Shown in pieces: positions 20,392-64,000 of a DNA stretch of 64,000 nucleotides (the first letter of the stretch is position 1; every line of letters begins with the position of its first letter). The position numbers and the translations under genes are program-made. The notes under the pieces were generated by a model. It worked only from the letters and a program-made list of their open reading frames with translations, made no database searches and had not been told where the DNA came from. This DNA comes from Labia minor (taxonomy: Eukaryota; Arthropoda; Insecta; Dermaptera; Spongiphoridae): contig OY720347.1 of NCBI GenBank assembly GCA_963082975.1, positions 10,088,225 through 10,152,224 of the forward strand, read 5' to 3'.

Positions 20392-23300
20392 TTAATGTTT
20401 GGTATCTTTAATATATGAACCATGACTTGCATATTTTTTATCATATACATCATGCCAATGATCTAAAAATTCATTACCGAAACTGTGTTTTCCAAAATTG
20501 CCTTTATTTGAATTGTTATTGTCATAAATATGATCCATACTGTATCCATCCTTTTGAGAATTTCCATAACCCTAAAACAGATATATATATATATATATAT
20601 AATTAGCTATTTAAAATATTTTTTTTTTTAATTTTTATAAGAATTACCAAGTTTTTCATAATCATTAATAATACGAGGGTGGGGTGAAAAGTTTCCCGCC
20701 TGACTAAGAAAAACGATGTTTTTAAATTTTAACGATGTCAGCTGAACATGTGCGAAATATTTTGCACAACCATTTGAATATGGAAAGCTGTGTGCAAACG
20801 AATTTTTGCGTCGATTTATAACTGTTGATGAGACTTAAATTAATTTAAATTAAATTTAACCAATTAATTCATTAATTAAATAAATAAATTAATTAACAAA
20901 ATTAGAACACCGTTATGGGAAAGGTATCAGTTTTTCTTGGTCAGGCCGGAAAGTTTTCACCCCACCCTCGTAAATTACTATGTATTATAATGTAATTCAA
21001 TTAGTGACGTAAAAATTCTGAAATTTCTTAAGATAATTCTTATTCATCAATCACCCATTGCGTTATATTTATTTATTATAATATTATTTTAAATAAATAA
21101 ATGATTACAAAGTAGATTTTAATTTAAATTCATTAAAGTATTTTTTTAAATGATACTAATATAATGACAATGATACTATACCCCTAAATGTTTATTAGAT
21201 GATTTATAAGGCGCTGATGGCAATGGTGGTGGAGGATGTGAAAAATCCTCAGATATACTCTCTTTTACTTGATAACTTCCTTTAGGCACACCTTTAGTTT
21301 CTTGATCCTAAAATTATAAACTAATATGATTACTACTTACATCAGTGATTCTCAAACTTTTTTTTACCGCGGCACACTTTTACGGTTTAAAAATTTGGCG
21401 GCACACAAAGAAAAAGATAAGTGTAAAAGTTTACCATATTGAAAAAAGTGGTCCCAAAAACGGTTTACCTTTTTTTTTAGAACAAAATTGAAAAAATTTA
21501 GAAAAAAAAATCGGGAAATGTCAAAATGCCTCTTTGCATTTGTAATCATTTGGCGGTACATTTTGATATTCTCGCGGCACACTTTTGAAAATCTCGCGGC
21601 ACACAAAAGTGGTTAAGATTCACTGACTTACATATATAAATTAAGAACCAAGAATGTTCAATTTATACTTCATTATTTTTTTTTGCAATAAATAAATAAA
21701 TAAAAGTAAAAATCATCAAAATGTTACTTGGAAAAAATAATTTTACAAAATTACATAATTATATAGGATTACATATTAAATTTATATTTTAAATAATATA
21801 TAAAAAAAAATATAATAAAATTTGAAATAAAAAAAAAAAAAAATAAAATAAATAAATTTTTCACCTCGTGTTCATCATGATCATCGTAGACATCTAACTC
21901 GTTATGCTCATAACCATCACCATAACTTGAAGGCCCTGCATAATCTTTATCGCCGTAATCACCTAAGGATGGTGAAAATTTCAGACCAACATCATCATTG
22001 GAATGTCCTCCAAAATCATTTGAATGAAAATCTGAGCCGCCATAATGGTCTTTGAAACCTGATGATGTTTCATGATCTTTATGATGTCCATCTTCTGAAT
22101 GAGCTTCATTTTTTAACAGCTCCTTATTAATATAAATAACAACAAGTTTTAGTAAGAAAAATATAAATATATTATGATATTCACAAATACCTTAAGATCA
22201 GTTATATGACTGGCATGATGGAAATGACCTCCTTCTTTATGTCCAGAAGTATGACCATGACCATGACCACCATGACCCCCTCCGTGTCCACCATGACCAC
22301 CTCCATGTCCATGTCCCATATGTCCACCATGACCTCCTCCATGTCCATGACCCATATGTCCACCATGACCACCTCCATGTCCATGTCCATGACCCATATG
22401 TCCACCATGACCATGACCACCTCCATGACCATGACCTCCATGTCCATGACTCATATGTGAACCACCTGCAAATCAAAAATAAAGATTTTTCATAAAATCA
22501 TTAAAAATGTTAATAATAATGTGAGAATATGAATTTCATGTCATGTTACAACAATTAATAAATCAATGAAAATAAAATACAAAAATTAGAGAATTTCGAT
22601 TACCTGAATGGGGTTTGTGAGTTTCATGGGTGGGGTGCGGTGTCCAATAATGATGTCCACTACCACCATGCCCTCCATGGCTACCTCCATGGGAACCATG
22701 ACTTCCATGGCTATGGTCATCTCCATGATGGCCAAAACTTCCAAAATGGTGATGATGATGATGCTCCTCCTCATGATGGGATGAATGATGATGACCATGG
22801 TCATCATCTCCATGACCTACATCATAAGTATGTCCACCTCCTACATGTATCAAAATTGTTTTTGTATGTTTCTCTTCATCGACAAATTTTGGAACAATTA
22901 TCTTTAAATGGACACTAAAAGAATATTTAAAAAATAAAATAAATAAATAACTATTATATTAAAAAAAAACTGTTGAAATTATTTTTGTAATATAGAATTC
23001 TTTTATATTAATCATATTATTAAATTCATTAAAATGTACCATACATTTATTAATATTAATTAACTAACATTTCTTTTCTTTTTGTTATCTAAATTAATAA
23101 AAGAACTTAATAAAAAAAAACAAATAAATCTATTAATTTAAATTAATACAATTAATGAATGTATATATTTTTAGTTTATTTATAATTGTTTTACGTTAAA
23201 AACGTTAATTTAACTTTTATAAAATCTCTCAAGTCTTTAACTTTAGATTTTCTTAAATTTCATTATAATTAAAAATATTCAATAAAAATCAACCAACGAA

Positions 23301-29300: not shown

Positions 29301-30649
29301 AATGGCAACAAATTATAGAACAAAATGGTGCATATTTGACCTAAATCGGACAATGCAAAACACGTTAAATAAAGTCTTGAAGTTCACGTAAAAATAATGG
29401 ATTTCTTTTTCCCCAACCTATTATAAAAAATGCCGCCCCAAGATAAGGACCGCGCCCCCCTAGGTACGCCACTGTTTTTACACTTAATGCTTTTAAAAGT
29501 AATTATAATATTATTTTTTAAAATGCCAATCAATCATTTTTTTAATTTCTTTGATGTATTTTATATTTTAAAAATTTATTTATTTGCTTTACAACATTTA
29601 TTTGAGATTCTTTTATAATATATATGATTAAGTAATTTATTAAAAACACATATAATTTAATTATTTGTTAATAAATATGTTTATATATACCAATGTATTT
29701 AAAATATTCTGTTTTTATTTAGCGATATCTTATATGTACGGTTAGTTAAATGATGAATTAATTAATTGATTGATCGATTAATTAATATATATTCTCTTTT
29801 AATATAAATGTATAAATCTAAATCTTAAATTTTCTTCATTATAGGTGCTCCTCCAAATGGGAATTGGACGCGAAGAGGTGATTTCTTCTCTCCATAAAAA
29901 ATCAAATTATGAAATATCAACCACATTACAGAGTTAGTAAAATGAGGAAATTAAAATTAGGAACATGGAATCTAAGTACTCTCTTCAGTTTTGGGAATAG
30001 GAAAAAAGTCGCCAAATCTGGTGAATACGGTGGTTGAGGCATGAGTACGGTGTTGTTTTTAGCCAAAAAAACAAGCAATGATGTGTGAGCTGGTGCATTA
30101 TCATGATTTGTTTTTCCACAATTTCGATTGTTTGAGCCGTTGCATAACTTCCTTGTTGTATACCTTATATTTTTAAAATTAAAAAATCTAAGAACACACA
30201 AATCGAACTAACTTTTTCAGTTGTCAAAAACAAATTACTAATCCAAAATGACTGATAATGTCATCATATGAGAATCATGTGTACCAACTTAACAAAAAAA
30301 ATTTCTATAATCAAATGTACACAGCCCGAGAAAATTTAAAATTCACCTTTTCTTTTGAATAGATCTCGTTTTTCATTACTTAAATTAAATTCAATTTATT
30401 TCAAATTTAATTTCACAATTCATTACAATTCATAGTAATATGATATAATCTATCTATATTAATGTATTTTTTTTTTATAAAAATTGATCAATTTTTTCTT
30501 TTCATTTTTATTAATTTTATAATGTATATACCTACCTAAAATATATTAATGTATCCTATGTATATATGATGATAAATATTAAAAGATACTTACTGTTTTG
30601 CCATCACGATATTCCCAAAAGAAAGAAGATTTATTAAAAGATAAACCAC
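20392..30649 (-). CDS. Secreted His/Gly-rich protein (first exon missing)
   Basis: Six minus-strand exons join in frame: 30649-30594, 22914-22604, 22465-22191, 22122-21865, 21307-21182 and 20571-20392. The first mapped exon is a hydrophobic leader (VVYLLINLLSFGNIVMAK) ending CA|GTAAGT. The second starts with T, giving His, then VHLKIIVPKFVDEEKHTKTI and a His/Asp-rich stretch (HHEEEHHHHHHFGSFGHH). The third is three to four 12-residue HMGHGHGGGHGG-type repeats. The last three are acidic/Gly-rich (GGSDFHSNDFGGHSNDD) and end ...YIKDTKH. About 400 aa. It looks like an extracellular, cuticle- or secretion-type His/Gly protein; metal binding by the His clusters is inference. Phases of all internal joins agree. 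Uncertain: the 7.7-kb link from the leader exon, the weak donor GTATAG after exon 5 (read-through gives an immediate stop at 21176-21178), and the unlocated initiator exon. Confidence 0.7.
20674..20970. mobile_element. Short mariner-derived MITE in intron
   Basis: TIRs CGAGGGTGGGGTGAAAAGTT and complement, flanked by TA on both sides. Inside are mariner transposase scraps: SAEHVRNILHNHLNME, then KLCA joined to NEFLRRFITVDET, showing a large internal deletion. It lies in the last intron of the His/Gly gene. Confidence 0.85.
21343..21625. mobile_element. hAT-type MITE (CAGTGATTCTCAA family) in intron
   Basis: Termini CAGTGATTCTCAAAC and TTAAGATTCACTG with perfect 8-bp duplications ACTTACAT (21335-21342 and 21626-21633). 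Internal CGCGGCACAC motifs are shared with 55976 and 56525. Confidence 0.9.
23265..23540 (+). mobile_element. Helitron-like 3' end, uninterrupted copy
   Basis: This copy joins the two blocks split at 10867/13268 and ends AAAGGCGATCAGAGTAGCTAG followed by T. The hairpin is degraded (GCGCC-AAA-GGCGA). It serves as a paralogous empty site for the 10868-13267 insertion. Confidence 0.75.
23631..23911 (-). mobile_element. tRNA-derived SINE
   Basis: Reading the minus strand, a tRNA-like head carries an A-box-like GTGGGTAGCGAACC and a B-box GGTTCAAGTCC. A conserved body follows (CTAGCTGGGGTCTATGGGAC, TTGATAGGCGTTGTC), ending AAGTCAGAG plus T-run. Other copies: 44170, 46960 and 59082. Confidence 0.85.
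24717..25573 (-). mobile_element. Internally deleted mariner (SETMAR-type), class B
   Basis: The minus strand opens YQRICIKFCVKNG...ALKMLTVAFGESTL. After KNVYKW it skips directly to the middle of the catalytic domain (KHAKFDQCEGFAHCF, standing for KARQIRSNVKV...), then runs to the C-terminus with frameshifts. The same junction is in the copy at 50679. TIR CTCGTA at the right end is intact; the left end is eroded. Confidence 0.85.
26394..26624. mobile_element. hAT-type MITE (CAGTGGTTTCCAACC family)
   Basis: From CAGTGGTTTCCAACC to GGTTGGAAAACAGTG, flanked by CCTTAAAG and GCTTAAAG (7 of 8). Near both ends is a CGCCCC block. Non-coding. Confidence 0.8.
27080..27300. mobile_element. Foldback element, one arm only
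   Basis: Matches the right half of the 2003-2489 element (CTCTGATGGTCAAATTAATA through GTAAACTAGAAG to AATTACCC). The left arm is absent. Confidence 0.75.
28135..29421 (+). mobile_element. Near-intact full-length mariner
   Basis: A 1,287-bp element with TIRs TTAGGTTGGGGAAAAAGAAA and complement, flanked by TA (28133-28134 and 29422-29423). Length and TIRs are those of a full mariner. The sequence resembles the Hsmar1-like (cecropia) branch, from memory. It is inserted in a hAT MITE inside the long intron of the His/Gly gene. Confidence 0.95.
28319..29344 (+). pseudogene. Mariner transposase, stopped twice near C-terminus
   Basis: The frame is open for 302 codons to TAA at 29225. It would continue, with a second in-frame stop (TAG, 29288-29290), to a natural TAA at 29342, giving the usual ~341 aa. 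N-terminal helix-turn-helix region (residues ~5-60, ASQAAENVNSVYG...FWFRRFRSG), linker GRP, second HTH (SSRSIAQELKIDHKTVLNHL). The catalytic triad is complete: D in VTGDEKW, D in FHQDNARPH and D in LAPSDYHLF, with 34 residues between the last two (DD34D), plus WVPLQL and YSPDL motifs. A DDE transposase cuts and pastes its element at TA. Only the last ~40 residues are cut off, so activity is doubtful but the copy is young. Confidence 0.9.
29843..29988 (+). mobile_element. LINE endonuclease N-terminal scrap
   Basis: Downstream of an open stretch, KMRKLKLGTWNLSTLF matches the start of RTE/CR1-type AP-endonuclease domains (common form RIGTWNVRTLY). It is cut off at once by a mariner fragment starting at 29989. 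Identified from one motif only. Confidence 0.6.
29989..30368 (-). mobile_element. Mariner fragment (SETMAR-type), class A deletion
   Basis: Minus strand: right-hand TIR (GAGATCTATTC), leader, then the same leader-to-EYYKEV-type junction as in 19321 and 36559. It goes on to DNAPAHTSLL and PPYSPDLA and stops within PKLKR. The left TIR end is lost against the LINE scrap. Confidence 0.8.
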
Positions 30650-46959: not shown

Positions 46960-47252
46960 CTACAGGGTGGGAGGTAGCGTAGCTGGTTCACATTCTCGTG
47001 GTCCCGAGTTCAAATCTCGGGTCTGGCAATGGAATTTTTCTAGCTGGGGAATTATGGGACGGAGTCAACCCAGTCCCCGAGTGTAACATTGGGAAGTTAT
47101 TTGATAAAAAGTAGCGCTTCCTAAAGAAAATCAAGAAATCAAGGTAAAGGTTGATAGGACTTGTTCTACTGATCATAGAACAACTAATAGATATAGCGGA
47201 CTTGATAGGCGTTGTCCTTGCGTAGGATGTACAAAAGTCAGAGGTTTATTTT
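46960..47252 (+). mobile_element. tRNA-derived SINE
   Basis: Head GGGAGGTAGCGTAGCTGGTT with B-box GAGTTCAAATCTCGG; body and 3' end as in 44170 (TTGATAGGCGTTGTCCTTGC, AAAGTCAGAGG). Confidence 0.85.
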
Positions 47253-47394
47253 TATAAATATAATATATTACTAGCAAAAATTTTATAAATATACATGTAT
47301 ATACTTATTTATAATCTTGAAAAATATTTATTTGAAAAAAAATTATACATATTTATATAAAAATTATAATTTTATTATTTCCGTTAGATTTCTT

Positions 47395-47690
47395 TCTCGG
47401 TAAGTTTCTCAATATTCCTAAAAATATTCTTAGAAACAATACTTCTTCGGACATTACCAATGGATAGATAATGACTTCTTTATCCAGCTTCCAAATAAGT
47501 TCCAGTTGGACAGCGTGTTCCCCATCTTTTCATTTTCTATTTTCTCAATATTATTGACAAAAGAAACTTTTATTTCAAATATGTTGGCCACACATCCTAT
47601 TCTTTTTATTGATGAGAAGTATATCTGGACTATTATAATTAATGGTTCTGTCGATGAGAATAGGATTATTGCCCGATATTAAATAAAATT
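47395..47690 (-). mobile_element. LINE C-terminal domain relic
   Basis: Minus-strand frames read NPILIDRTINYNSPDILLIN, then ELIWKLDKEVIIYPLVM and LGILRNLP. These match the region after the polymerase in some site-selective or R2/R4-like non-LTR elements (common form RTIxNNRPDIVL...RIWKLxxVxIIPVVI). Several stops and shifts. Family uncertain. Confidence 0.6.
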
Positions 47691-48319
47691 GTTTTTTTTT
47701 TTTGACTATTGGCTTTGGGTTGTATTTATAGTAAGATATTATTATTAGTATTTTTACAAATTTGTACATTCTCAGCATTTTTTATTGCTGGAAACTATCC
47801 ACCTATCCCATAGATGTTAGGTGCTTAGGCTAGGTCTAAATGGGAAAGGAATTCACCTTGGCCCATTTGATTCTTCAGATATCAATCCGTTCTTTAACCT
47901 CTGTAATGGGTTATCTTCGTATTGGTTTACACGGTAGAAGATTCTCATGACTTTAGTGTTCATCTCGTGCGTACATTAAATACGTCGATTACGAGCTTCT
48001 CTGCGGACAGTCTTCTCTTTCAAAACTTGAGTAGACGAGCCCGAATAAAAGGTGGCTTCAGTTTGATTCGCCTCTGTGAAATCCATTACATCAGGTGGTG
48101 TTTGTTGGGCTAATTTTCAATCATTTTCTTTTATATAAAAATCTAAAAATTTCAAAATGTTCCTAAATTTCTTTTCAACCAATGTTTACTTTTCGGTTGT
48201 TTAATTAATTTTAAAAATATATAAAATATGTTGTGTATAATATCGATAAATTATATATTATATATATCAAAGCATATTTTTTATTCTTTTTAAAAATGAA
48301 AGAAAAATTCTTAATAAAA
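47691..48319. other. Spacer with a GC-richer stretch
   Basis: 47800-48115 is less AT-rich than its surroundings and includes an open frame on + (47922-48113) and partial frames on -. No motif is recognisable; it may be more LINE debris. Confidence 0.35.
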
Positions 48320-48474
48320 TAACCCTGAGTGGATCACTTGGCTCGTGGGTCGATGAAAAACGATGCTAATTGCGCGTCAAAATGTGAACTGCAGGACACA
48401 TGAATATAGACAATTCGAACGCACATTGTGGTCTTAACACTTTGTCTTGGACCATTCCTTTCTAAGGAACGTAT
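48320..48474 (+). pseudogene. Orphan 5.8S rRNA pseudogene
   Basis: AACCCTGAGTGGATCACTTGG, CTCGTGGGTCGATGAAAAAC, TAATTGCGCGTCAA, GTGAACTGCAGGACACATGA and CGAACGCACATTG follow insect 5.8S rRNA in order. The length is about that of a whole 5.8S. A short deletion after AACCCTGA, AACGATGC for AACGCAGC, and other changes mark it as dead. No 18S, ITS or 28S flank it. Confidence 0.9.
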
Positions 48475-48589
48475 TCTTTTTAAAATATAATTAAAAAAAA
48501 AATTAATTAATTAATTATTATTATTATTATTAATAAATTCAATAAATCTCAGCTGTTGCCAGTTTTTTTCTTCTCTTTTTAATTTAGCC

Positions 48590-48800
48590 AATGTGGAGAG
48601 GTAAGAATGTCGAAAAATATATTGGTGGGGAGATCGATTAGGAAACGTCCACTTGGAAGACCAAGGATGCGGTAGCGGCTGGACAATGTAGGAAGGGTCG
48701 TGAGAGAGTTGAGACAAGGTAGGAGTTGGATGGTTGTGGCTCAGGATAGGGATATTTGGAGAAGTGTGATTCCTGCGGGCAAGAACTTTCGAGTTCAGTA
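48590..48800 (+). mobile_element. LINE 3'-end fragment
   Basis: The tail of the same LINE type as 12722: RSIRKRPLGRPRMR followed by a stop-containing run, VVRELRQG, VAQDRDIWRSV and AGKNFRVQ, ending in TTTCGAGTTC as there. 5'-truncated. Confidence 0.8.
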
Positions 48801-49460
48801 GAGAGTATATATTTTGCTCATTTGTTAACTAAAAGTGAGAGTGAAAGTCATTTGTAAAGTTTCAAGATTTCAAATGATTTTTTATTTGTATGATTAAATA
48901 ATATGTAATACAAGAGAGTTTTAAAAATTTAATTAAAAATAATAAAATTAAAAAATATTAATATTTCTATTAAATTTAGAAAAAAATTAAATATTTTAAA
49001 TAAATAATATTTGATTATTATATATTAAAATATAAATTTACATATTATAATCATCTTTCTGGTTGAAGATTATTTGAATTAATCTGAATATTTTACAAAT
49101 TTATTGGTGATTGATTAAAATTTAAAATTTATAAAAATTTTATGCTAAAAACTGAATAAATTGCTAAATATAATCTATTATTATAGTTTTAATGTTTCAA
49201 TCGTACATTTGAAATCATATTAAAAATGAAAAATTAATCAAAAATCATATTTGTTTTTTTCTTAGTTTTGTGGAATGACCTATTAAATTAATTACCTATG
49301 CGTACTTACCGATATTTGAAAATAAAGATAAAAACCTGAAAATATGAATTTCCTCTTATACTATCTCGTACAAAGTTATTACATTAAAATTATAATCAAA
49401 TTCATGGAAAATTTATTTTATTTAAAAAGTATTTAAATTTTATAGATATTTATGTTCATT
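48801..49460. other. AT-rich spacer
   Basis: No gene or repeat end recognised. Confidence 0.4.
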
Positions 49461-49719: not shown

Positions 49720-50162
49720 CTTATATTGTATTTACTTATATTAAAAAAATAAATTTATTTTTTTTCTAATATATTCCACAATTAATTTTTAAAAAATTAG
49801 AATTTATAATTCATATGAAATTTATTTTTATTTTTAATGAAATTCCAATTGAATTTATAAATATGCTAATGGTGATCTTAAAATAAAATAATAGACAATA
49901 ACACACACATTATATATAAATTATTTTATATATTTTTATTCATTTACATATTTAATATAATAATAAAACAAATATATTATAAAAATAAACAAACTTAAAT
50001 ATATATTATACTCGTAAATATAGATTTTTAATAAATAATTATTTTTTTTCTTTATTTTATATTTTTCTTTTTATTTAACATTTTTTTTACTGTTTTTGTA
50101 TTTTTTTTTAAAAAAATAAATGAGATTCAATAAGTGGGAGAGATGTAAAGAAATTAAAATGG

Positions 50163-51861
50163 TTAATGATAGTGGTGCTTGCCTCCTCCCCCATGTTTAA
50201 TGATCTTGTAAATGGTATGCGTATGTTTATGCTTTTTCACATGGACAGGCACGTGGATGATCACCTTTTTACTAAAAAAACAACAACATTATTTATTAGT
50301 AAATAGTATAGTAATAGTCAATAAAAAAATAATGAATTAAGATGTGTGACATAAAAAAGTAGACGTCAGAGTTGAGAAGACACCATTGGCATTGCCCGAC
50401 AACAACACCACCATCGCATTTACTTTTTTCCGTCAATCTAAATTTATTTTAGAAATATCAATAATTTAAAATTTTATTACATATTCTTAATTTTATTTTT
50501 ATTACATATTCTTAATTATAAAATATACCAATTGAAATTTTTTTAAAAGTGTTCCAAGTGATATAATTTAAATTCTACTCGTATTTTACAAAATATATAA
50601 ATTAAGAATTTTAAAATAAAAATAATAAATTAATTTTATTTCTACAACTATACTTTTAACTACAATATTAGGTATTTACGAAGTCTGTTCAAAGAAAAGG
50701 TGAATTTTGAATTTTGGCAGGCTGTGTACATTCGAAATTTTTTTTGGTTATGTTGGTACACAATGTTCCTCATATGTTGACATTATCAACCAATTTGGAT
50801 TAGTTGTTTGTTTTTGACAACAGAAAAAGTTAGTCACGTTTTTGTGTGTTCTTCGTTTTTTTACTTAAAAAAAATGTATCAAAGATGTATTGAATTTTGC
50901 GTTAAAAATGGAATAAAAACTTAAAATGTTGACTGTGGCATTTGGTGAGTCTAACTTGTCTCAAAAAAAATGTTTATAAGTGGAGGATAAAGCACGCCAA
51001 ATTCGATCAAATGTGAAGGTTTGGCTCATTGTTTTCTTCGATTACAATGGCGTGATGCTTAGTCGTACTGTTAATAAGGAATACTACAAGGAAGTTATGC
51101 AACGTTTGCGAGAAGCATACGGCTCAATAGAAATTGTGGAAAAACAAATCAGGGATAATGCACCAGCTCACACATCATTCTTGATTATTTGGACAAAAAC
51201 AACATCGTAATCATGTCTCAGCCACCGTATTCACCAGAATTTTTCCTATTCTCAAAATCGAAGAGACCAATGAAAGCAAAGCGTTTTGTCACAATTGATG
51301 AGATAAAATCGGAATCGAAGAACGAGCTCATGGCCATACAAAAAAAAAAAAAAAAAAATTATCAAGTGCTTCAACGTTTGGAAGAAGCTCTGGCACATAA
51401 GTGCATTATATCTGAGAGGAATTACTTTGAAGGGGGTAAAATGGATATTGATGAATAAATAAATACATTACGAAATAATGCAAAATTCAACTTTTTTTTG
51501 AACAAACCTCGTACATAAAAATAAAATGTTTAAATTATTTTACCAAGTATAGAGAGAGAGAGAGAGTTATGATAAAATATAATATGCGCATATAGTATTC
51601 ATATTAATTAATAAATTATTAATATTGTTTTAATTTTCTGGTAAATGATTACGTTAACTGCTCAATTTCTATCAAAGCATAAAGATAAATCTTATGATCA
51701 AACCACAAAGATTTCGTTTGGTGTGTGTGTGTGTGTGTGGTTATTAAATTTGGCTTCGCTAGCTTTCAAATCCACTGTGACTAATTGGCCTCATTTAATG
51801 GGCCCGAGTTAAGGGAGAGAATTATAATTTTTCCAAATAAAAAAAGAGACATAACACTTTT

Positions 51862-51897
<36 letters not shown>

Positions 51898-54800
51898 GGG
51901 GTAGGGGTAAAACTCTTAACGACTCATCTTCTATAATTTAGGAATAATTTATTAAAATCCAATTCATTCATTTTCAGAAATTGTAGGGCAATTTGATAGT
52001 CTGCTTTTTCGTGTGTTAATAAGTTTGAATTGTATAGAATTTCTTGTTAGAAGATTATAGGTTCTTTTTATAAAGCTCATCCATTCCGTCCCACTAAAAA
52101 TATTTCAGGTTTTTAATCTTAATTTAAATACACAAAATAAAAAAAAAATAAAACAAGTGTATCTCTTTAATAATCTAAACATTTTTTTTCACATCAAATT
52201 AATTTTAAATTATTTTTTAATTTAAATGAAAAGACAATATTAAAAATATAATTTTATAATTTAATTATAAATGTATAAAATGTATATGAACGGTTTGAGC
52301 TAGAATCATGGAATTTGTTCAAAATTCGTAGTTTTCTATCAACTTTTGAGAAATATAGCTCAACCGGAAGAGGGTCATTATCTACAACGTTTTGATTTTT
52401 TATCCTCTAAAGTTACCGTAAAAATAAAGATATATGTTTAGTAATTTTTCATATGATTAAAAATTGTATAAAACTGCTATATATAGAATTTCAGATTGAT
52501 TGAATCGCTGAAAGTACCTGAATTAATTTTTTAACACTGCAAATCACGCGCCAACACGTGACATCATCAAACAGCCAAACATGAAAAGTTGATGGATTTA
52601 AAAGTTATAAGTCATTTATTCATTAAAATAGTCTGTAAGAAATTATTCTATACCTAGATAGAGATATTTATGTATTTATTATATTTGTGTGGGGGAGATA
52701 GAGAAACAGAGAGAATCAAGTCACGCAATATTGCCTGAGTGTTTCAAACTCCTTCATATCTTTTTCAAATTTTCATTCAAGTTTTGACAAGAACATCTTA
52801 ATAGGTCTTTCCAAATTTAAATTTGTAAAAAAAAAAATATGTATAAGAAATATATAAAAGAAAAAAATTCAAAAAAATGATTTCAACAATTATTTATTCT
52901 AATGCATACTCAAAATTCATTAAAAATTTTTTATTTATTAACTATTTATTCATTTAATGACTGTTTTTTACTATCTCGCCAGAGATAGTATTGAGATCAC
53001 GAAAATTTTCAATGTCGAGATTTTAATGATTTTATACGTTTTGAAGGTTCCTGAAACATTTTCACTAAGGTTGAGAAAAATGTCTCTGTGTGTGTATGTA
53101 GACAAGATTACGCAGAAACATTTTGAGCTAGAATAATGAAATTTGATATACGGACATTATTCAAAATTCGTAGGTTTCTATCAACTTTTGAGAAATGTAG
53201 TCAACCGGAAGAGGGTCATTATCTACTACGTTTTGATTTTTTTCATCTAAAGTGACCGTAAAAATAAAGATATATGTTTGAAAATTTTTCATATGATTTA
53301 AAATTGTATAAAACTGCTATATATAGAATTTCAGCTTAATTGAATCGCTGAAAGTTTAACAAATTGATGTGGTATACACGAGTTAATAATTATTATTTTT
53401 TAATTTTAATTTATAATATAATTACTTAAATTTAATATAAATATAATATATGTTATTTAATCCAATTGAAATTTCGAGATAGTCGAGTGAAGACACTCCA
53501 GATTTATTTATTTAAAGAATTAATATAATCATTATGCAAATTTTAAGGTAAAAAAAGATAGAATTTAAAAAAATTCAATTATTTGAGTGGATAATATTAT
53601 TTCAAATTTATATTATAATTATTAAAATGATTATCCTAATGTATCAAAATTTAACTTTTTAGAACCATTATTTTGTCGATGATATTATATGGATGCAAAA
53701 AGTATTATATTACTTAACAGGGAAGGGAATAGTTTAAGAGTGTTTGTTAATTGAATTTTTCCTCACTGACTTGATTGTGGGGAATCCCATTGGGAAGCGA
53801 TTGGTTGGTAGAGAACAACAACGAGGTGGACATACAAAAATTAGTATTTAAAGAGTAGATGATAACTTTTTTCTTATCATCTATTCATAAATAAAACATG
53901 CAAGGGTAAAGAGGATGAAGAGTCAATAATGATGAATGCTTGCTTACTGGTGACTACCGCCGCCGCCACCAGCCAAGGAGCCAGCCACTGCCATCAGGAC
54001 GACCAGGAGGAGACCCAACTGAAACATCGGCAAATGTTAGTTAATCTATGACAGGGATGGCGAACCTTTTTCAATGTCCGTGCCACAAAATAATAAAAAA
54101 ATAAATCTTTTTGAAGTAACTAACGTCCCACAAAATTGTCACTATTTTTTTTCTCCACCACTTGTACACCTTTTAGCTTGAATATATAATCGAATATTTT
54201 TGTATAACTTATGACAATCCTGTATATAAAAGTGTTATAATTGGAAATATTAAACTTTAAACCAAAAAAAAAATATTTAAAATGATTATTAAAAAATTTG
54301 GAATTTATTTGAGGTAAAAATATATCTTTCCTCAAAATTGTCTATTATTTTTATTTTTTTATTTTTATTGTATGGGAATTCTTTAATTGATTTTAGTTTA
54401 TAGTTTTTAGTTGAAGATAATGACGAAATAGCAACAATTTATATCTAATACCGTGAACCACTTACAATTTGTTGTTTTGACAATGCAGTATTAAATTCTA
54501 GAAAAAGATTGCGAATCTGGCTGGCACTATTCTCCAACCGTCTTTATGGGTAAAGTATAGCTTTGTTAAGCTTGAAAAAAATAATTTTTCTCTTTTTTTT
54601 AATAAATATTGATAAAATTTACAGAATATATTAAAATAGGAGCATATAAAAATATTCTGGTAATATCTCATCCCCCCAATCCATTTTGAGTTTATAACTT
54701 CACAATTTCCCAAACAGACAGACAGATTAAATAAAATGACAGATATGAAAAATACAAAAATCATATTTGGGTTCTCCAGGGAGAGTGAAGATTTGCAAAA

Positions 54801-57800
54801 AAACTTTAAATCCTGAACAATGCGATGTGTACCTCAACAACACGCAATGGCATGAATAGTCCAAACGGTATACACTGAATCTATCATGAATGTTTTTATA
54901 CTGAAAGGGAATTCAAGCGTAATTTCAGTAATAAAAGATACAATCAGTGGTGTATTGGGAGGGGAACGCGGGGAAACGACGTTCCCTTACCTTTTTTCAG
55001 AACCGGAACGCGTTCCAGTACTTTTTCATGTCCCGACAACTCCCACTTATATCTACTGTTAGAATTTCTGTTTTTGTGTTCGTTAATATTTTGTATTGTA
55101 AGAATAAGAAAAAATAAAAACTTATATATATATATATGGAAAAAAGTAGTTTGCTGAAAATAGGACTTTTTTTGCTCCCACTATGCGTTCCCTTACTTCT
55201 TATTTTACAAATACATCACTGTATATGTAAGTGTTTAATCTCTACTAAGATAGATAAATAAATATTCAGTAATTCAAATTTCATAAATTGTAATTTTAAT
55301 ATGAATTGTTCATTTTTAATTCATTTCTATTGAAAAAAGTTAAAATTATTAAAAAAATAATTTTCTCTTTATGCGTGCCAAAAAATTTTTCAAACGTGCC
55401 ATAGGTTCGCTATCCCTGGTCTATGAACATCAGGTCGTATTCAATAACACTATTCCTTACTATATTTCAGTAAACAAATAATGAAAAAAAAAATTTCATC
55501 AAAATTTGTAACTGCTTCCATTAAATCAGGGTTTCCCAACCTTTTATCTACGTTAACTTATTTTAAACTTTTTTCTCTATTTTTATGATCCAGTATAAGT
55601 GGATTAATAAAGTTAAAGAGAATTAGGACCATTTAATAGAGAATATTTTTAACACAATTTTACAACAAAATAAACATTTCTATTAATGTATTAAGGTTGA
55701 GGCTGATATTTTTTGAAATTAGATTGAAATTTTGATTAATAATAAATTTTCAAACTTACAAATATATAATTTAAAAATTAAAAAAATATTTAAAATATAG
55801 AAATTATTGTATAAAATATTTATTTATATTTACATATTTACAAAAAATTTTCCTCAATTCAAAAAAAGGACCTAAGTTAAATGGTATTTTATTTAGTTGG
55901 AATATTTAAAAGAAAAGTTTTAATTTAAAAATCCTTTGAAAATACCTTAAAACATGGACGATTATTCCTATAATACAGTGATTCTCAACCATTTTTTTTA
56001 ACGCGGCACACTTTTAACGGTTTAAAAATTTGGCGGCACACAAAGAAAAAGATTGAAAAAAGTGGACCCAAAAACGGTTTACCTTTTTTTTTAGAACAAT
56101 ATTGAAAAAATTTCGAAAAAAGTCGGAAATGTTTAAAAGCCTCATAATCTCGCGGCACACTAAAGTGCCGCGGCACAGTGGTTGAGAATCACTGCTATAA
56201 TATATAAAAGTGTAATAAATAGAACTTTTATAAATACTACAACTATGAATACCAGCAGGATTGAATATGAATACAAACAGGCAATTGCTTTTTATTACTT
56301 TTTTATATAGTTTTTTTTTTATTTTATAAAGAAATCTCTTATTTTTTTATACTAATTGAAAGAGAAAATTTCGCCGCCAATCCCCAATAGTCACCTCAGG
56401 TTCTGTTGTCCATATTCAAAGATCCATAACCTCCCCCCCCCAGGAGTCCACAAGGACCCCGATGGGAATCGATAGTTTAAACCAGAAGTCTTCAAACTTT
56501 CTGGAATCGTGGAACCTTATACGGCAGTGATTCTCAACCACTGCGCCGCGGCACTTTAGTGTGCCGCGAGATTACTAGGCTGTTTAATTTTTTTTCTAAA
56601 TCTTTTCAATATAGTTCTAAAAAAAAAGTTATAACGTTTTTGGTAAAAACATTTCCGACTTTTTTTGTAAATTTTTTCAATATGGTTCTAAAAAAAAAGG
56701 TAAACCATTTTTGGGACCACTTTTTTTCAATATGGTAAATTTTTACGCTTATCCTTTTCTTTGTGTGCCGCCAAATTTTTAAAACGGGAAAGGTGTGCCG
56801 CGGTAAAAAAAAAGGTTGAGAATCACTGCTATACGGCAATATATTTTTCAACGGAACCCTATAGAATTAATATTAATATTAAGTTAATACTTAAAAAAAA
56901 TTCGTAATATTAGAGCTATATGGTATTTAACTTTTATTATTATACCAAAGAAAGATAATGTTAAAGACACTTTGTAAACAATGATAATTCAAAAATGAAA
57001 AATTAAGGAAAAATAACGATAGTCACGGAACCCTGGGGTTTGGTTTACGGAACCCAATTTGAAGATCACTGGTTTAAACCATAAAATTTAAGTTTAAATA
57101 TCATATTCAATGTTTGTTTTACCCATATTAAAGCAAAATAATTTATGAATTAACAAATTATTGTATTATTTCAAAAATGTTCTTTTTTCTTTTATATTCA
57201 TTTTTTGCTATTAATATAAATCATACGCTTTCAATTTTTGTTTTTGTTTTTGTATTTCTTATTTTATTTATTTTGATTATTATTTTTTTATATATATATA
57301 AATGGAAACCAACGATTGGATTTAATTTCATTAAAAGAATATCATTATCATCATCTTTTGTTGTTTTGCGGTTAAAAAGCATAACAACTTTCCAAATATA
57401 AATAGTATAAGATACTAAGGTAGGTTGTTAGTAAATGTATATGAACTGAAGATATGATTTGTCATTTTTTTCTATATAATTAATAACAAAATTATATTAT
57501 TAATTAATAGAATTAATATATAATGATTTCTAAAAAAAAAAAAACTATTTGTTACTTTTTAAGAAGGTTAGTTATATTATTTTCACTTTATCCATGTAAT
57601 AGATATTATTATATTATTAAACAAGTAATCATTATTTTTAATTATTTGTAATTTAAAATAAAATAGTCACATGAAATAATAAATGAATCTTTTATGTTAA
57701 CATAAGATCAAATTTGCTTTCCAATTTTGATTAACATTTTTATAAAACTTGACGAATTATTTATATATTTATATATTATATGTATAAAGAAAAAAAGAGA

Positions 57801-60800
57801 AATGAAAATTTTATAAATTATCCAGAGATTAATATTTTTACTATGTCGCCAGAGATTTCGTATTGCGATCACGAAAATTTTCGGTGTCGAGATTTTGATC
57901 TTTTCCCGAATCATTTTCACTAAGGTTGAGAAAAATGTCTGTGGGTGTGTGTATGTGTGTATGTATGAAAGCAAGATTACGCAAAAATTTACGGGAATTA
58001 TTCAAAATTCGTAGTTTTCTATCAACTTTTGAGAAATGTAACTCAACCGGAAGAGGGTCATTACCTACAACGTTTTGATTTTTTTTTCCTCTAAAGTGGC
58101 CGTCAAAATAAAGATATATGTTTGATACTATTTCACATAATTAAAAATTGTATAAAACTGCTATATATAGCATTTCAGCATGATTGAATCGCTGAAAGTA
58201 CCGGAATTTATTTTTTAACACTGCAAATCTCACGCTCCAACACGTGACGAGGTACCATCAACAAAGAGCCAAACATGCGCTGATTTAATAAATATTATTT
58301 ATTAATTTTAATTTATAATTAATTAAATTTAATTTAAATATAATATATGTTAATTAATCCAATTCAAATTTGTGAGATAGTCGATTGGAGAAACTCCAGC
58401 TTTTTTTTATAAATTTCTTGACAAATAAACAATACAATATCTATAATATTATCTAAATATCAATTTTTATAATATATTAAGAAATAATTAACATAAATTA
58501 TTTTGTAAATTTTTTAAATGGCTAAAAATAGTTTTGACCAGGAGGGTAATTCGCCTAACTTGAGTACGAGGGATAGAACCTCGTCAAGTTCATTTAGATT
58601 TAAGTATAACTAAAATTAATTCATAATAATTCTAAAAAAGTTGACTAAAATGGAGATTTATTCCAAGGCCAATAATTATTAAAGTAAAAAAAAGGAGATT
58701 TGTTTTGTGCCCTTACGAAAATAAATATATAATTAAATTAATTTTATATCATAATTAAATGAAGTCAAATAAAATTATTTCAATAATATCAACTTTTAAA
58801 AAATGTATAAATATGTTATTATTGCGTTAGCTCTTAAAAAAGGCAAGTCTAAATAGTAAAAGAATGAAATGAGTTTAGAAATTAAAATAAAAATAGAAAA
58901 ATCAATAAATAAAATTATTAGTTAGGGTGAAATTAAAGCCTAAGTCATATCCGGTACGACTTACGATCCAGGAATTAATTAAGAATTATTACATTTATGT
59001 TTAAAGCACTTGAATATTGTAATAAATTCGAAAAATCTTACAAATATGCTTTAATATAAAATATCTTAATTCATAAAAAAAAACCTCTGATTTTGTAGGT
59101 TATATCAATGAGGTGTCCTATGATCAGTAGAACGGGTCCTCTCAACCTTTACCTTGATTTTCTTGATCAAGTATCTTATCCCCAATGTTGTTCCCGGAGG
59201 CTGAGTTAACACTGTCCCATAGACCCCAGCTAGGGAAATTCCCTTGGCAGGTCCGGGACTTGAACCCGGGTCCATGTGAATGTGAGGCAGGTTCGCTACC
59301 CACACACCCAATGGCGCCTTCATCTTAATTCATTAAAGAATCAATATTAAAAAAATAAATAAACAAACCTTGTATTTTCTTTATATATATATATATAATA
59401 TATATAAATTATATACATGGTATATAGTATAAATTATATGTATATAGTCTAAAACAATATGGCTGATGTCATAGTTGTGTTACTAATATCACACATGTCA
59501 GTAGTACGACATAGGAAGAGGTACGATTAACGCAACATTCAACTAGTCATTTAATATAAATATTATCAAACTAAAATTTATTTTCTTTTTCTTTATTAAG
59601 AATCCCTTATGATTACTGATAAAATAAATTTAAAATGATGTAATTGAATGTAATGAATTATAATATTGGGATAACTTTGTATTTTGAATTTATAATTTAT
59701 TTTAATGATCATTAGGTATAGAAAATTGTTTGAAAATAAATCCAAAGGTGATATATTAATACACATTAATAAATAAATTTTTAGAACAGCAATTGCCAAT
59801 TTTTTTATTATTAGCAGGGACTTTAAGGTTGACAAAACTCAATTGTATGTGTCAATATAAAAACAAGTAATGTAAAATAAAATCAATATCTAGTACATAA
59901 AACTGCTAAAATTCTATATAAAGTATTTGAAAATGAATAACAAAATTTTATGCGATTCGATCCGAAGACATGAATTTCTAAGCCGCTGCTCAATTATTTT
60001 AGTCTTTGCAAGACAAATTAATACAATCTTACTAGATATCTTATATAAGATAATTTTTTTTCATCTATATAAATCTAAAATTAATTGAAAAAAATTGAAT
60101 TAACAATTATCAATTATCAAGTGTCATTGACTACAAATAAGCTGGAGTGTCTCAACTCGACTATCTCGCAAATTTGAATTGGATTAAATAACATATATTA
60201 TATTTAAATTAAATTTAATTAATTATAAATTAAAATTAATAAATAATATTTATTAAATCAGCGCATGTTTGGCTCTTTGTTGATGGCACCAAGTCACATG
60301 TTGAGATTTGCAGTGTTAAAAAATTAATTCCGGTACTTTTAGTGATTCAATCAAGCTCAAATTCTATATATAGTAGTTTTATACAATTTTTAATCATGTG
60401 AAAAATTACAAACATATATCTTTATTTTTACGGTCACTTTAGATGAAAAAAATCAAAACGTTGTAGATAATGACCCTCTTCCGGTTGACTACATTTCTCA
60501 AAAGTTGATAGAAACCTACGAATTTTGAATAATGTCCGTATATCAAATTTCATTATTCTAGCTCAAAATGTTTCTGCGTAATCTTGTCTATATACATACA
60601 CACACATATATACACAGACACAAAGACATTTTTCTCAACCTTAGTGAAAATGATTCAGGAACCTTCAAAACCTATAAAAACATCAAAATCTCGAAATCGA
60701 AAATTTTCTTGATCGCAATACTAACTCTAGCGAGATAGTAAAAATGTATTTGAACTTAAGTGAATAAAAAAAAAAGTATTTTTTAACGATTGATAGAAAA

Positions 60801-61056
60801 TTTTTAAATTATATATATATAGGGAGAGTGTAAACTAATAATAGGAATTGTATAAGAATAAACATAATTAGGAAATAAAACAAAAAGAAATAATATTTTA
60901 TAATTAATAAAAAGTTTAAAATCTTTCATGGATCCAATGTTCCATCATGTTTCTAGATGGATTGTTTCATTGATTTTTTCATCATCTTCAGTTGCTTAAT
61001 AGAAATTAATTAAAACATTATAGGATTCTGACACTTACTAATTTATGGAAGTGCAT
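50163..61056 (-). CDS. Small secreted His/Gly/Val-rich peptide, three exons
   Basis: Minus strand, exons 61056-61039, 54018-53948 and 50271-50163 (198 bp, 65 aa). Exon 1 codes MHFHKL and ends at GTAAGT. Exon 2 (TGTTTCAG acceptor) codes LGLLLVVLMAVAGSLA then GGGGGSH, ending CA|GTAAGC. Exon 3 (TTTTTTTAG acceptor) supplies T, completing His, then KKVIIHVPVHVKKHKHTHTI and YKIIKHGGGGKHHYH, then TAA. Phases agree at both joins. The product is a classical signal peptide plus a ~45-residue basic His/Gly/Val peptide, probably secreted to cuticle or gland lumen; function unknown. Its leader/module junction and KxIIxVP...KHTxTI pattern match the big gene at 20392-30649. An ATG 9 nt before exon 2 (54027) would allow a shorter transcript. 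AATAAA lies at 50056-50051. Introns of 3.7 and 7.0 kb are full of transposons. Confidence 0.75.
50679..51511 (+). mobile_element. Internally deleted mariner, class B
   Basis: TIRs CGAAGTCTGTTC/GAACAAACCTCG. Reads YQRCIEFCVKNG, then (frameshift) the VYKW end joined directly to KARQIRSNVKVWLIVFFDYN, then EYYKEVMQRLREAYGS, DNAPAHTS, PPYSP, SKRPMKAKRFVTIDEIKSES, LEEALAHKCIISE. Same deletion junction as 24717. A poly-A expansion near 51340 disrupts the frame. Confidence 0.85.
51864..51895. repeat. TA microsatellite
   Basis: About 16 TA dinucleotides in intron 2 of the small secreted-peptide gene. Confidence 0.85.
52288..52583 (+). mobile_element. DINE/HINE-like fragment, both ends missing
   Basis: Core only, from GAACGGTTTGAGCTAGAATC to ACATCATCAAACAGCC. 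Confidence 0.8.
52970..53502 (+). mobile_element. DINE/HINE-like element, complete
   Basis: ACTATCTCGCCAGAGATAGT at the left, TGTGTGTATGTA tract, CGAGATAGTCGAGTGAAGAC and ACTCCAG at the right. The block after CGCTGAAAGT is altered relative to other copies. Confidence 0.8.
54052..55418. mobile_element. hAT-type element, 1.37 kb, with nested MITE
   Basis: Termini CAGGGATGGCGAACC and GGTTCGCTATCCCTG, with ATCTATGA/GTCTATGA flanks (7 of 8). A second MITE (54945-55221) sits inside. Two minus-strand frames (54120-54335, 54498-54764) are not recognisable as transposase. It lies in the intron 25 bp upstream of exon 2 of the small secreted-peptide gene. Confidence 0.85.
54945..55221. mobile_element. 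Nested hAT MITE (CAGTGGTGTATTGG family)
   Basis: CAGTGGTGTATTGGGAGGGG to AATACATCACTG, close to 7064-7302 but with an internal TATATATA expansion. No clear duplication. Confidence 0.8.
55976..56194. mobile_element. hAT-type MITE (CAGTGATTCTCAA family)
   Basis: Termini CAGTGATTCTCAACC and GGTTGAGAATCACTG with perfect 8-bp duplications CTATAATA (55968-55975 and 56195-56202). Confidence 0.92.
56483..57071. mobile_element. hAT-type MITE containing another hAT MITE
   Basis: Outer termini CAGAAGTCTTCAAAC and TTTGAAGATCACTG with a perfect 8-bp duplication GTTTAAAC (56475-56482 and 57072-57079). Sub-terminal GTGGAACC/CGGAACCC also pair. Inner element at 56525-56828. Confidence 0.9.
56525..56828. 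mobile_element. Nested hAT MITE (CAGTGATTCTCAA family)
   Basis: CAGTGATTCTCAACC to GGTTGAGAATCACTG, with flanks TTATACGG/CTATACGG (7 of 8). An inverted relative of 55976. Confidence 0.9.
57080..57839. other. AT-rich spacer
   Basis: No gene or repeat end recognised. The frame 57177-57401 is T-rich hydrophobic codons only. Confidence 0.4.
57840..58401 (+). mobile_element. DINE/HINE-like element, complete
   Basis: ACTATGTCGCCAGAGAT at the left, TGTGGGTGTGTGTATG tract, GTGAGATAGTCGATTGGAGA and AACTCCAGCT at the right, followed by a T-run. Confidence 0.85.
58402..59081. other. AT-rich spacer
   Basis: No gene recognised. A slightly GC-richer piece at about 58536-58595 (ACCAGGAGGGTAATTCGCC, GATAGAACCTCGTCAAG) is unclassified. 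Confidence 0.4.
59082..59316 (-). mobile_element. tRNA-derived SINE, 3' part shortened
   Basis: Minus strand: GTGGGTAGCGAACC, B-box GGTTCAAGTCC, body CTAGCTGGGGTCTATGGGAC. The GATAGGCGTTGTC block is deleted before the AGAGG plus T-run end. Confidence 0.85.
60140..60740 (-). mobile_element. DINE/HINE-like element, complete, inverted
   Basis: On + it begins AGCTGGAGTGTC and ends GCGAGATAGT. It contains both sub-terminal repeats, the palindrome (as GGAG-TGT-CTCA, one mismatch) and a CACACACAT tract, and lies 0.3 kb downstream of exon 1 of the small secreted-peptide gene, in its intron. Confidence 0.85.
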
Positions 61057-61083
61057 GATGTTTATCGTGGGCGCCTTGGCGAA

Positions 61084-61136
61084 GCACTGACTGACAGGCA
61101 AATCTCTACTGACCTGCATGGTTCTCCACTTTTATA
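61084..61136 (-). promoter_or_regulatory. TATA-type core promoter of the small peptide gene
   Basis: Minus strand TATAAAA at 61136-61130, with arthropod initiator-like TCAGT motifs whose A lies 26 nt (61110) and 44 nt (61092) downstream. The ATG of exon 1 follows at 61056. The block is much less AT-rich than its surroundings. The spacing of the first motif is slightly short, so the exact start is open. Confidence 0.6.
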
Positions 61137-61730
61137 CATCTCCCCCACAGGGTTTCCGCTCGGTTGCAGTGGCTTCTCTCCACCTCCTTCAATTCCAAAA
61201 TCTCCAGTGAGGTGGGAGGAAAGTGAAATTGCAATTTAAGAATTAATACTAATAAAAATAATAATTGTCAACCTACTAAACTTCATTATTATACATAATA
61301 CTTTGAAAAAAACAAATATAGCAAACATTATATGTAGAAATGTTAAACTTAAATGATCAACTTCATTTTGTAATAAAAGTTTTCAATTAATACTTCATAC
61401 TTCGTCGTTAAAAAAAACATCACAAGAATTTTTTAATATAATTCAGGATAGAGTGGAAAATATTCTGCCAGTAATTCTTAAACATAAATAAATTATTTTA
61501 TTAAATTATAATAGATTTCTTTAGTAATAGGAAATAAAAAGTGAATTGAAATATCTACTATGTTTGCTGTAATGACTGTATCTTAATAGTCTTATAAAAT
61601 TATAGTATTGGTAAAATAATTCAATTGGATATTACTTTAGATTAAAATGGCTTAAATATTTTTAATGACTAATAAATGAAAATAAAATATAAAATGTAAG
61701 TAAATATTTAAAAAATTGTTTAATAATATA

Positions 61731-62013
61731 CGAAGTTTGTTCAAAAGAAAAGGTGAATTTTTTGAATTATTTCGAAAAGTATTTATTAATTCATCAATAA
61801 CCATTTTGTCCCCCTCAAAGTAAAGTAAAATCGAAGAACGCACAAAACGTGAATATTTTTTTCAGGTGTCAAAAACAAACTACTAATCCAAAATGGCTTA
61901 TAATGTCAACACATGAGAAACATATGTGTACCATCATAACAAAAATATTTCGATAATTGAATTTACACAGCCCGTCAAAATTAAAAATTCACCTTTTCTT
62001 TTGAACAGACCTC
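61731..62013. mobile_element. Mariner-derived MITE, almost no coding left
   Basis: About 283 bp with both SETMAR-type mariner ends: CGAAGTTTGTTCAAAAGAAA and a complementary right end, plus a scrap of the 3' tail (ATTACTTTGA-like). The smallest member of the deletion series at 19321, 24717, 36559 and 50679. Confidence 0.8.
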
Positions 62014-62037
62014 TTATAAAATGTCTAATAATTCTTA

Positions 62038-62435
62038 CGAGGGTCATTCAACAAGTACTTAGCCTCACCGTCCGATGGCGCTGCTATCACAAGAGTTTTA
62101 CCATTATGTAGTACATTCTTTTACTAGCCTACTGTCAAAGTTTCAATCAATTCCCTTCACTAGTTTTGTTTTGACAGCCTTTGGAAGGGAGCGTGTCGAT
62201 CAGTTGTACAAAAATGAAAAAAAAACCAATTCGACCCAAATTCATTCCCGGCAAGTGACTTTTTCAGGTTTGGAAACAAAAAGTAATCACAGGGGCCAAA
62301 TCTGGGTAGTAAGTTGGATGAGGCAGCAATTCGTAGCGCAATTCGACCAATTTGGCCATGGCCATTTTTGTACAACTCTTTTGTGATAGCAGCGCCATCG
62401 GACGGTGCGGCTAAGTACTTGTTAAATGATCCTCG
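62038..62435. mobile_element. Deleted Tc1/mariner element of another family
   Basis: TIRs CGAGGGTCATTCAACAAGTA and complement (one or two mismatches), flanked by TA. The minus strand retains FGPCDYFLFPNLKKSLAGNEF, the third-Asp region of a mariner-type transposase. About 400 bp remain. Confidence 0.85.
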
Positions 62436-62437
62436 TA

Positions 62438-63191
62438 TATTAACTAAACTAATTAAACAAAAAGAAACAACAACAACAAAAAGATACATATACAAGAATT
62501 ATCATCTCTGAATCTACTTTATACAATTTACGATATATAATAAATAAATTAATTAATAAAATGTGATTATTTTTATATGTAATTATTATTATTCGATTAA
62601 TGTTACTCATTAAAATTAATAAAATTTCACGTTATTATTTTTTATTATATTTTTTTCTTTATTTTATATAAAACTAATTAAATAATATGTCAAAAAAAGA
62701 ATGATTGAAAGTAAAAATATTGACAATTTCTTATTTAGAAACAAAAAAAAAATAATGAAGACCAATTGAATCAATTTGAATAATGATATTTCAAATTTTA
62801 CTTCCCAGTAATTTTATATTCTATTTTATTTTCTAAAAGATTATTTGTTATATTATACAATTGTATATATGTTTGTATTCAGCAGACATTTGAAAGTTGA
62901 ACAATAAAATTATTTAAATTAACAAATAATAGGAAAAATTAAACTATGTATTTTAAAAAAAGCGATTTTTTCCCCTTCCGATATGGAAATAAATAAATAA
63001 ATAAATTCCTATATGTCATGTAAGAAAACATTTGAGGAACACACATCAGGAAATATAATTTACATAAATATTAATAAATATGTATGTAGGTATGTTTTAG
63101 GTTTTGTAGATGATTTAGAATTTAATTATTATTATTATAATTAAGGATTTCAATTTGTTTAACGAGTCAAGACAAAATTTAAAAAGGTTTT
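62438..63191. other. AT-rich spacer
   Basis: No gene or repeat end recognised. Confidence 0.4.
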
Positions 63192-63609
63192 TGTTTACAA
63201 AACGAGGGATTTGGATGGAACTTTGCAAGTGGATTTCTTTATTAATTCTAAAGAAACTTTCCTTATGCAAGATTTCTCGGTCTCTAATAGTTTACGAGAT
63301 AAAAATTATTAAAATTTGCAGATAACTTGTTATGAATGAACAGCCATTTAATAATGTTTTATTGACTAATTCACTAATTTTCGTTTTTTTCGGGTCGGTT
63401 TGGATATAGAAAAATTATTTAGTTAATTATTTTTTTATTTTTCATATATAACCAAATCGAACTGAAAAAAAACCCCGAAAATTAGTGAAGCCCTGTAAAC
63501 TAGAAGAGTCCGCAAAATATTGCATAAGGAAAGTTTCTTTGGAATTAAAAAAGGAATCCACTGTGGCAAAGTTTCTTCCAAATCCCTGAAGCTTCCCGTT
63601 TTGTAAACA
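63192..63609. mobile_element. Foldback element (TGTTTACAAAACG ends)
   Basis: Ends TGTTTACAAAACG and CGTTTTGTAAACA with long complementary arms (GGGATTTGGATGGAACTTTG and AAAGTTTCTTCCAAATCCC). Sub-terminal GTTTACGAGATAAAAATTAT is shared with 32844 and 2003. No clear target duplication. Confidence 0.8.
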
Positions 63610-63649
63610 TTAGCTTTACAAATTTTATAAAGTCAATGATAAATGATTA

Positions 63650-63674
63650 TTATATATATATATATATATATATA
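63650..63674. repeat. TA microsatellite
   Basis: About 12 TA dinucleotides. Confidence 0.85.
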
Positions 63675-63867
63675 AATCAACGTTTTAGATATTTCTTATT
63701 TCTTTTTTTATAAAAAATCAAACTCAATTTAGGGGGTCTAACCAAAACCGAAAAACATGGCAAGGGGTCTACGACACAATAAAGTTTGAGAACCTTTGAT
63801 ATAGACAGATTAAATAAAATTAATAATAAAAAAGAAATAGTATTTTTTTAATTTTAGTTATTAAAAT

Positions 63868-64000
63868 ATATCTTTATTTTTACGGTCACTTTAGAGGAAT
63901 AAAAATCAAAACGTTGTAGGTAATAACCCTCTTCCGGATGAGCTACATTTCTCAAAAGTTGATAGAAAACTACGAATATTAAATGATGCCCGTATACCAA
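63868..64000 (-). mobile_element. DINE/HINE-like element, cut by window edge
   Basis: Inverted core (ACGGTCACTTTAGAGGAAT, AAAACGTTGTAGGTAAT, GTTGATAGAAAACTACGAAT) running off the end of the window. The 3' terminal part is missing on the left. Confidence 0.8.

Follow-up and report, generated by a model that had tools for sequence, protein, structure and literature searches.

The 64,000-nucleotide stretch of Labia minor DNA analyzed here (the window) probably contains a real protein-coding gene, hereafter gene A, of arthropod type judging from its promoter and layout, that would encode a secreted His/Lys/Gly peptide, most likely structural. We read it as a real small secreted-peptide gene because of its splice signals, its codon composition, the controls on its exons, and another gene of the window, hereafter gene B, which is probably related to it and shares its intron phases. 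Gene B and its proposed link to gene A are new, and the layout of gene A itself is ordinary.

Structure and Coding Evidence of Gene A

Gene A lies on the minus strand and is built from three exons of 18, 71, and 109 nucleotides that join in phase into 65 codons, for a spliced coding length of 198 nucleotides, stop included (Table 1). Its translation reads MHFHKL, then LGLLLVVLMAVAGSLAGGGGGSH followed by a His codon split by the second intron (CA/T), then KKVIIHVPVHVKKHKHTHTIYKIIKHGGGGKHHYH and a stop, i.e., a signal-peptide-like start continued by a His/Lys/Gly peptide. The introns measure 7020 and 3676 nucleotides, with donors GTAAGT and GTAAGC and acceptors TTTCAG and TTTTAG, giving GT-AG borders at both. 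The initial annotation had proposed this gene, and its coordinates, exon lengths, phase, borders, and 65-residue product were all recovered from the sequence. Its figure of more than 98% intron also holds: exons account for 198 of the 10894 bases of the locus (1.8%) and introns for 98.2%.

The base composition of the exons departs from that of the window. Exon 2 has a GC content of 0.66 against a window mean of 0.264, a level met at four places in the 64 kb, including exon 2 itself. Across the whole reading frame, GC occupies 38/66 third positions, stop included (p 9e-8 against the window GC of 0.264), and 20/29 fourfold sites (p 2e-6 against the window GC).

Table 1. Features of genes A and B and of the gene A locus, in window coordinates.
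Feature	Position	Strand	Basis
TATA box (TATAAA)	61131..61136	-	sequence
Initiator-like TCAGT, A(+1) 61110	61108..61112	-	motif; combination not significant alone
Gene A exon 1, MHFHKL, donor GTAAGT	61039..61056	-	sequence
hAT-type element, gene A intron 1	54052..55418		terminal repeats and target duplication
Branch-site-like CTAAC, gene A intron 1	54036..54040	-	motif scan
Gene A exon 2, signal-peptide core, split His codon CA/T at end (phase 2)	53948..54018	-	sequence; exon scan and controls
Degenerate mariner, gene A intron 2 (ends approximate)	50678..51514	+	terminal repeats and Transposase_1 match
Branch-site-like CTAAT, gene A intron 2	50295..50299	-	motif scan
Gene A exon 3, KKVIIHVPVHVKKHKHTHTIYKIIKHGGGGKHHYH and stop	50163..50271	-	sequence; His-content control; low-confidence beta-hairpin model
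Two AATAAA motifs 3' of gene A stop, starts 50075 and 50056	50051..50075	-	sequence
Gene B signal-peptide exon, VVYLLINLLSFGNIVMAK and CA/T	30594..30649	-	top of 16 exon-scan matches
Gene B core exon, VHLKIIVPKFVDEEKHTKTILIHVGGG...	22604..22914	-	similarity search, sequence
Gene B exon, GHGGGHGGH repeats	22191..22465	-	sequence
Gene B exon (acceptor AATAAG, poor score)	21865..22122	-	sequence, splice scoring
Gene B last exon and stop	21176..21307	-	sequence

Chance Controls

Chance does not account for exons 2 and 3 of gene A in these controls, whereas exon 1 taken by itself is within what chance gives. We scanned both strands of the window for internal exons resembling a signal peptide, entered in phase 0 and left in phase 2, and obtained 16 segments, of which the best two were the gene B exon starting at 30649 (top) and gene A exon 2. 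The exon 2 score was reached by these two segments in the window and by none in the reversed window, and 40 sequences from an order-3 Markov model gave a mean of 0.075 segments per window at that score. The comparison for exon 3 took in phase-2 open segments that span 30 codons or more, have an acceptor score of at least 2, and contain at least 20% His in the first 60 residues. The window has five of them (exon 3 of gene A, three gene B starts that overlap, and one segment antisense to gene B), and the reversed window has none.

These controls are to be read with their settings in mind. The splice matrices were rough values, and the phases of the scan, its score cut of 21.4, the TATA spacing of 26-33 nt used below, and the 20% His cut were all chosen after seeing gene A. 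Only the recovery of gene B is therefore independent of these choices. The branch-site-like motif CTAAY stands 19 and 25 nt before the two gene A acceptors; 222 of the 5027 AGs in the window (4.4%) are preceded by one, and the motif scan placed it at 0/5 gene B acceptors. It lends weak support because its frequency ahead of good phase-2 acceptors is 2/38 in the window, no higher than the 2/32 of the reversed window.

Promoter and First Exon

The TATA box that the initial annotation had placed upstream of the gene A ATG is there, in the form TATAAA. The A(+1) of the initiator-like motif lies 26 nt from the first T of the TATA box and 54 nt before the ATG. TATA, initiator, ATG, and donor taken together are no rarer than chance: the full set occurs twice in the window and once in the reversed window, and simulated sequences average 2.65. 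A looser TATA-N-TCAKT pattern occurred 29 times in the window, where simulation gave 15.7 on average, many of the 29 being adjacent matches in TA runs; adding the ATG and the donor left no excess, and the promoter motif was therefore rejected as independent support. The exon 1 donor ranks only in the top 11% of window GTs. Excerpts of a study of Drosophila embryos report TATA promoters with a weak initiator and TCAGT as a mark of paused, not TATA, promoters (PMC7863008), a pattern that counts against the TATA/TCAGT promoter reading for gene A. Support for exon 1 comes instead from the GC richness of the 5' region (197 bp at 0.48, which 1.7% of window positions attain), from the A at -3 of the ATG, and from gene B, whose signal-peptide exon calls for a preceding exon in the same phase.

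An unlikely alternative is that gene A is real and its translation starts elsewhere, either at an in-frame ATG that stands 9 nt ahead of exon 2 (54027; MFQLGLLLVV...), or in another first exon such as that at 54853, leaving 61056-61039 noncoding. Sixteen ATG-donor combinations pass a lenient filter in 54050-63900 (some share an ATG, and 61056 is included), and a TATAAA/TCAGT pair at 54900 on the minus strand would suit such a start. However, exon 2 is preceded by a CTAAC motif and a TTTCAG acceptor, and in gene B a stop codon directly ahead of the acceptor of the matching exon means that an upstream exon is needed there. In addition, under limits set after gene A was seen, 61056 is the sole minus-strand ATG in the window that combines a TATA-initiator spacing of 26-33 nt with a donor score of at least 3 and a short open exon.

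The pair at 54900 lies within the hAT element: TATAAAA is joined by a TCAGT starting 22 nt on, and then by the ATG at 54853 and a phase-0 donor. It is a possible transposon-borne alternative first exon of gene A.

Mobile Elements and Other Features of the Window

Recognized repeats make up 5079/10894 bases of the gene A locus (47%) and none of the exon bases. The mariner and hAT insertions described in the initial annotation are both present. The hAT-type element is bounded by 15-bp ends (14/15 alike) and 8-bp flanks (7/8 alike), and its near end is 33 bp away from where exon 2 begins, with the branch-site motif close by in the gap; the single fragment of it that was scanned matched no transposase family. 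The ends of the degenerate mariner in intron 2 match at 25/28 positions, and one of its two translated fragments matches Transposase_1 with an E of 0.0021, below Pfam's cut-off. Copies of a dispersed AT-rich repeat, which may correspond to the DINE-like insertions of the initial annotation, occur near 52.3, 53.1, 58.0, and 60.2 kb.

The exons and splice sites were said to have stayed intact despite these insertions, and they have: the reading frame runs without a stop or frameshift, and the donors and acceptors keep GT-AG. This bears on the possibility that gene A is a decayed gene, or a chance chain of open segments without a product. Eleven kilobases of repeat-rich intron, a first exon that is not significant, and a similarity to the gene B core that is weak by itself would all fit such an origin; the intact frame and splice sites, the GC-rich synonymous sites, and the behavior of exons 2 and 3 beyond their controls argue against it, and we consider it quite improbable. 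The small secreted-peptide gene of the initial annotation is supported by its splice signals, composition, controls, and gene B as its probable relative. The selection that the initial annotation had read into it is a matter of composition and intactness, which indirectly suggest that selection on the product is likely.

Elsewhere in the window, a far better preserved mariner than the copy in the gene A intron lies at 28319-29227 on the plus strand, where a 302-aa transposase ORF matches Transposase_1 (E 1e-26) and HTH_48 (E 3e-15). The only Rfam match at gathering threshold in the window is a 5.8S rRNA at 48321-48471 on the plus strand (75 bits, full model length); it lies in AT-rich surroundings and looks like a stray or pseudogene copy. 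At 2561-2863, plus strand, a ubiquitin-conjugating enzyme fragment (UQ_con, E 2.8e-19) is probably an exon of a larger gene. A single 432-aa ORF at 14285-15583, minus strand, appears F-box/leucine-rich-repeat-like by eye, with a sub-threshold F-box match only (E 0.76).

Gene B, a Longer His/Gly-Rich Gene

Gene B is also on the minus strand, between 30649 and 21176, with five exons seen and a further upstream first exon not seen. Joined, the five exons run uninterrupted through 343 codons up to a stop, the exons after the core being His/Gly-rich as well. Gene B probably encodes a secreted protein rich in His and Gly, 343 residues or longer, and is a probable relative of gene A. The protein is long and partly acidic. 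The signal-peptide exon lies 7.7 kb upstream of the core exon, which opens T/GTC CAT TTA AAG... and ends at a donor at 22603 scoring 8.3. Three of the four scored acceptors are unremarkable (22914, top 27%; 22122, top 49%; 21307, top 21%). GC is low at third positions (64/344), so the high GC at the third positions of gene A is not general to the pair.

Because a stop codon stands just before the acceptor of the signal-peptide exon, gene B needs an upstream exon of phase 0. The interval from 30650 to 49000 yielded no first exon whose TATA and initiator are well spaced, and 14 looser ATG-donor combinations occur there, e.g., the TATA-less 38303 (MLFSKQ).

Relationship of Genes A and B

Genes A and B have two arrangements in common. 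(i) In both, the signal-peptide exon is entered in phase 0 and left in phase 2 inside a split CA/T codon. (ii) In both, the motif VPxxVxxxKHTxTI occupies codons 7-20 of the next exon, with equal spacing from the splice junction. When relaxed, this pattern, which was derived from genes A and B themselves, matched only these two genes in six frames of the window and nothing in the reversed window. Taken together, the phases, the split codon, and the offset of the motif make common descent of the two genes likely. They are most likely diverged members of one secreted family, itself most likely structural.

Residue similarity says less. An in-register alignment of the cores is identical at 9/26 residues, a score reached in 480 of 200000 shuffles of a 26-residue stretch picked after the match had been seen. 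The whole gene A peptide matched gene B with an E of 0.007, without composition correction and among the matches listed. By sequence search alone, the similarity was not significant in the 64-kb window: the cores matched at 19.6 bits, against 20.4 for an HT-repeat in the window and 20.0 for the best match in the reversed window. As the score falls below the reversed control, core similarity was rejected as stand-alone proof of homology.

We also modeled the core exons of both genes, 35 residues each, with single-sequence AlphaFold. The gene A model has strands at residues 3-13 and 16-26 (mean pLDDT 72.1, pTM 0.30) and the gene B model at 9-12, 17-24, and 28-34 (mean pLDDT 71.6, pTM 0.33), both at low confidence. 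In both models, two strands are joined by a turn (residues 13-16) that precedes the HT of KHT, and the third strand (28-34) of gene B has no equivalent in gene A. Short alternating sequences often model as hairpins, so the likeness in fold is mild support.

The two genes could also be parts of one 40-kb locus, in which the MHFHKL exon would be spliced either to the exons at 54018 and 50271 or to those from 30649 and 22914 onward. The phases fit, and gene B has no well-spaced TATA/initiator first exon of its own in 30650-49000; nevertheless, we regard this arrangement as very improbable. If true, the output of a single promoter would be either a very small cationic peptide or a long His/Gly protein, the signal-peptide and core cassettes being exchanged between them.

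Predicted Product and Function of Gene A

The gene A signal peptide is probably cleaved between GSLA and GGGGG, a site read by eye. With cleavage assumed there, the predicted mature peptide has 43 residues, including 11 His, 8 Lys, and 9 Gly and no Asp, Glu, Arg, Cys, or Phe, and is linear and cationic. The gene A product matched no Pfam family up to E 10 and no NCBIfam family, and its best match among solved structures had an E of 5. Pattern searches gave 63 matching stretches in viral contigs and 64 in prokaryote contigs, with no relative confirmed in either, as would be expected of an animal gene. A search of the literature for strings of the peptide found no match, which says little, and literature searches on copepod and His-rich peptides and on vajk gave no relative.

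Closer parallels are found in cuticle genes. According to excerpts of PMC2259329, the CPR genes of Anopheles gambiae have TATAAA in 126/153 promoters, and those with introns have a split signal peptide in 86% of cases and first coding exons of 3-36 nt. Gene A resembles them in its TATAAA and TCAGT-type initiator, the AATAAA after its stop, a first coding exon within this size range, and a signal peptide split by an intron (PMC2259329, in part). Thus, the 'hidden' layout of tiny exons emphasized in the initial annotation is present but, by the same excerpts, ordinary for arthropod cuticle-type genes. Unlike CPR proteins, gene A has no R&R chitin-binding consensus, judging from the Pfam search, and its mature length of 43 aa falls short of their 87-837 (PMC2259329, in part).

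TcCP30 of Tribolium is described in extracts from PMC4440208 as a low-complexity, His-rich major cuticle protein without an R&R motif. It shares with gene A a signal peptide, the absence of R&R, a Gly-rich composition, and about a fifth or more His; with 11/43 His under the assumed cleavage site, gene A is within the range of roughly 20% or more that marks His-rich low-complexity cuticle proteins. TcCP30 differs in having 36% Glu and 19% Arg, a length of 171 aa including the signal, and a single exon (PMC4440208, in part), whereas gene A is Lys-rich, without acidic residues, and divided into three exons. The His-rich cuticular proteins of lepidopteran scales are likened to gene A by composition, namely high His; most of them, unlike gene A, belong to the RR-2 type and carry the R&R consensus, and one was cross-linked in vitro by laccase2 and catechols (excerpts of PMC8062583).

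If gene A is real, a structural role is our first choice, held at about even confidence, in view of the cuticle-type gene layout, His cross-linking, and the TcCP30 precedent. Its expression can be rationalized as follows. (i) The TATA/initiator promoter would give a short mRNA of ~370 nt once spliced, in which exon 1 would supply the start of the signal peptide, exon 2 its remainder, and exon 3 the mature peptide, the core exon being presumably shared by descent with the longer gene B. (ii) The product would enter the secretory route, where removal of the signal peptide would leave the linear cationic 43-aa His/Lys/Gly peptide to be secreted. (iii) The peptide may then serve as a small component of cuticle or of a gland secretion, where its predicted His/Val/Lys beta-hairpin could pack with others or cross-link through His, in the manner reported for other His-rich cuticle proteins.

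A secreted antimicrobial or metal-binding peptide is a less likely reading, to which we would give about half the weight of a structural role. Eight Lys and 11 His in 43 residues with no acidic residue are in keeping with it, as is armadillidin, an antimicrobial isopod peptide that is likewise short, linear, cationic, and Gly-rich, with some His (11%; excerpts of PMC5031766). However, the gene A peptide has no GGGF(H/N)(R/S) repeat, and its Gly content is 21% against 47% in armadillidin (PMC5031766, in part). The probable relative, gene B, a long and partly acidic His/Gly protein, is more like a structural or metal-binding protein, and we favor the structural role.

Significance

If confirmed, gene A would add a small secreted peptide of a type that can escape gene finders, since none of its exons exceeds 109 bp and its introns, spread over 11 kb, are filled with mobile elements. 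It would also be tied to a longer His/Gly-rich protein through a common exon. The signature of the pair, a phase-2 CA/T junction followed by VPxxVxxxKHTxTI, may be used to seek such genes in other arthropods.
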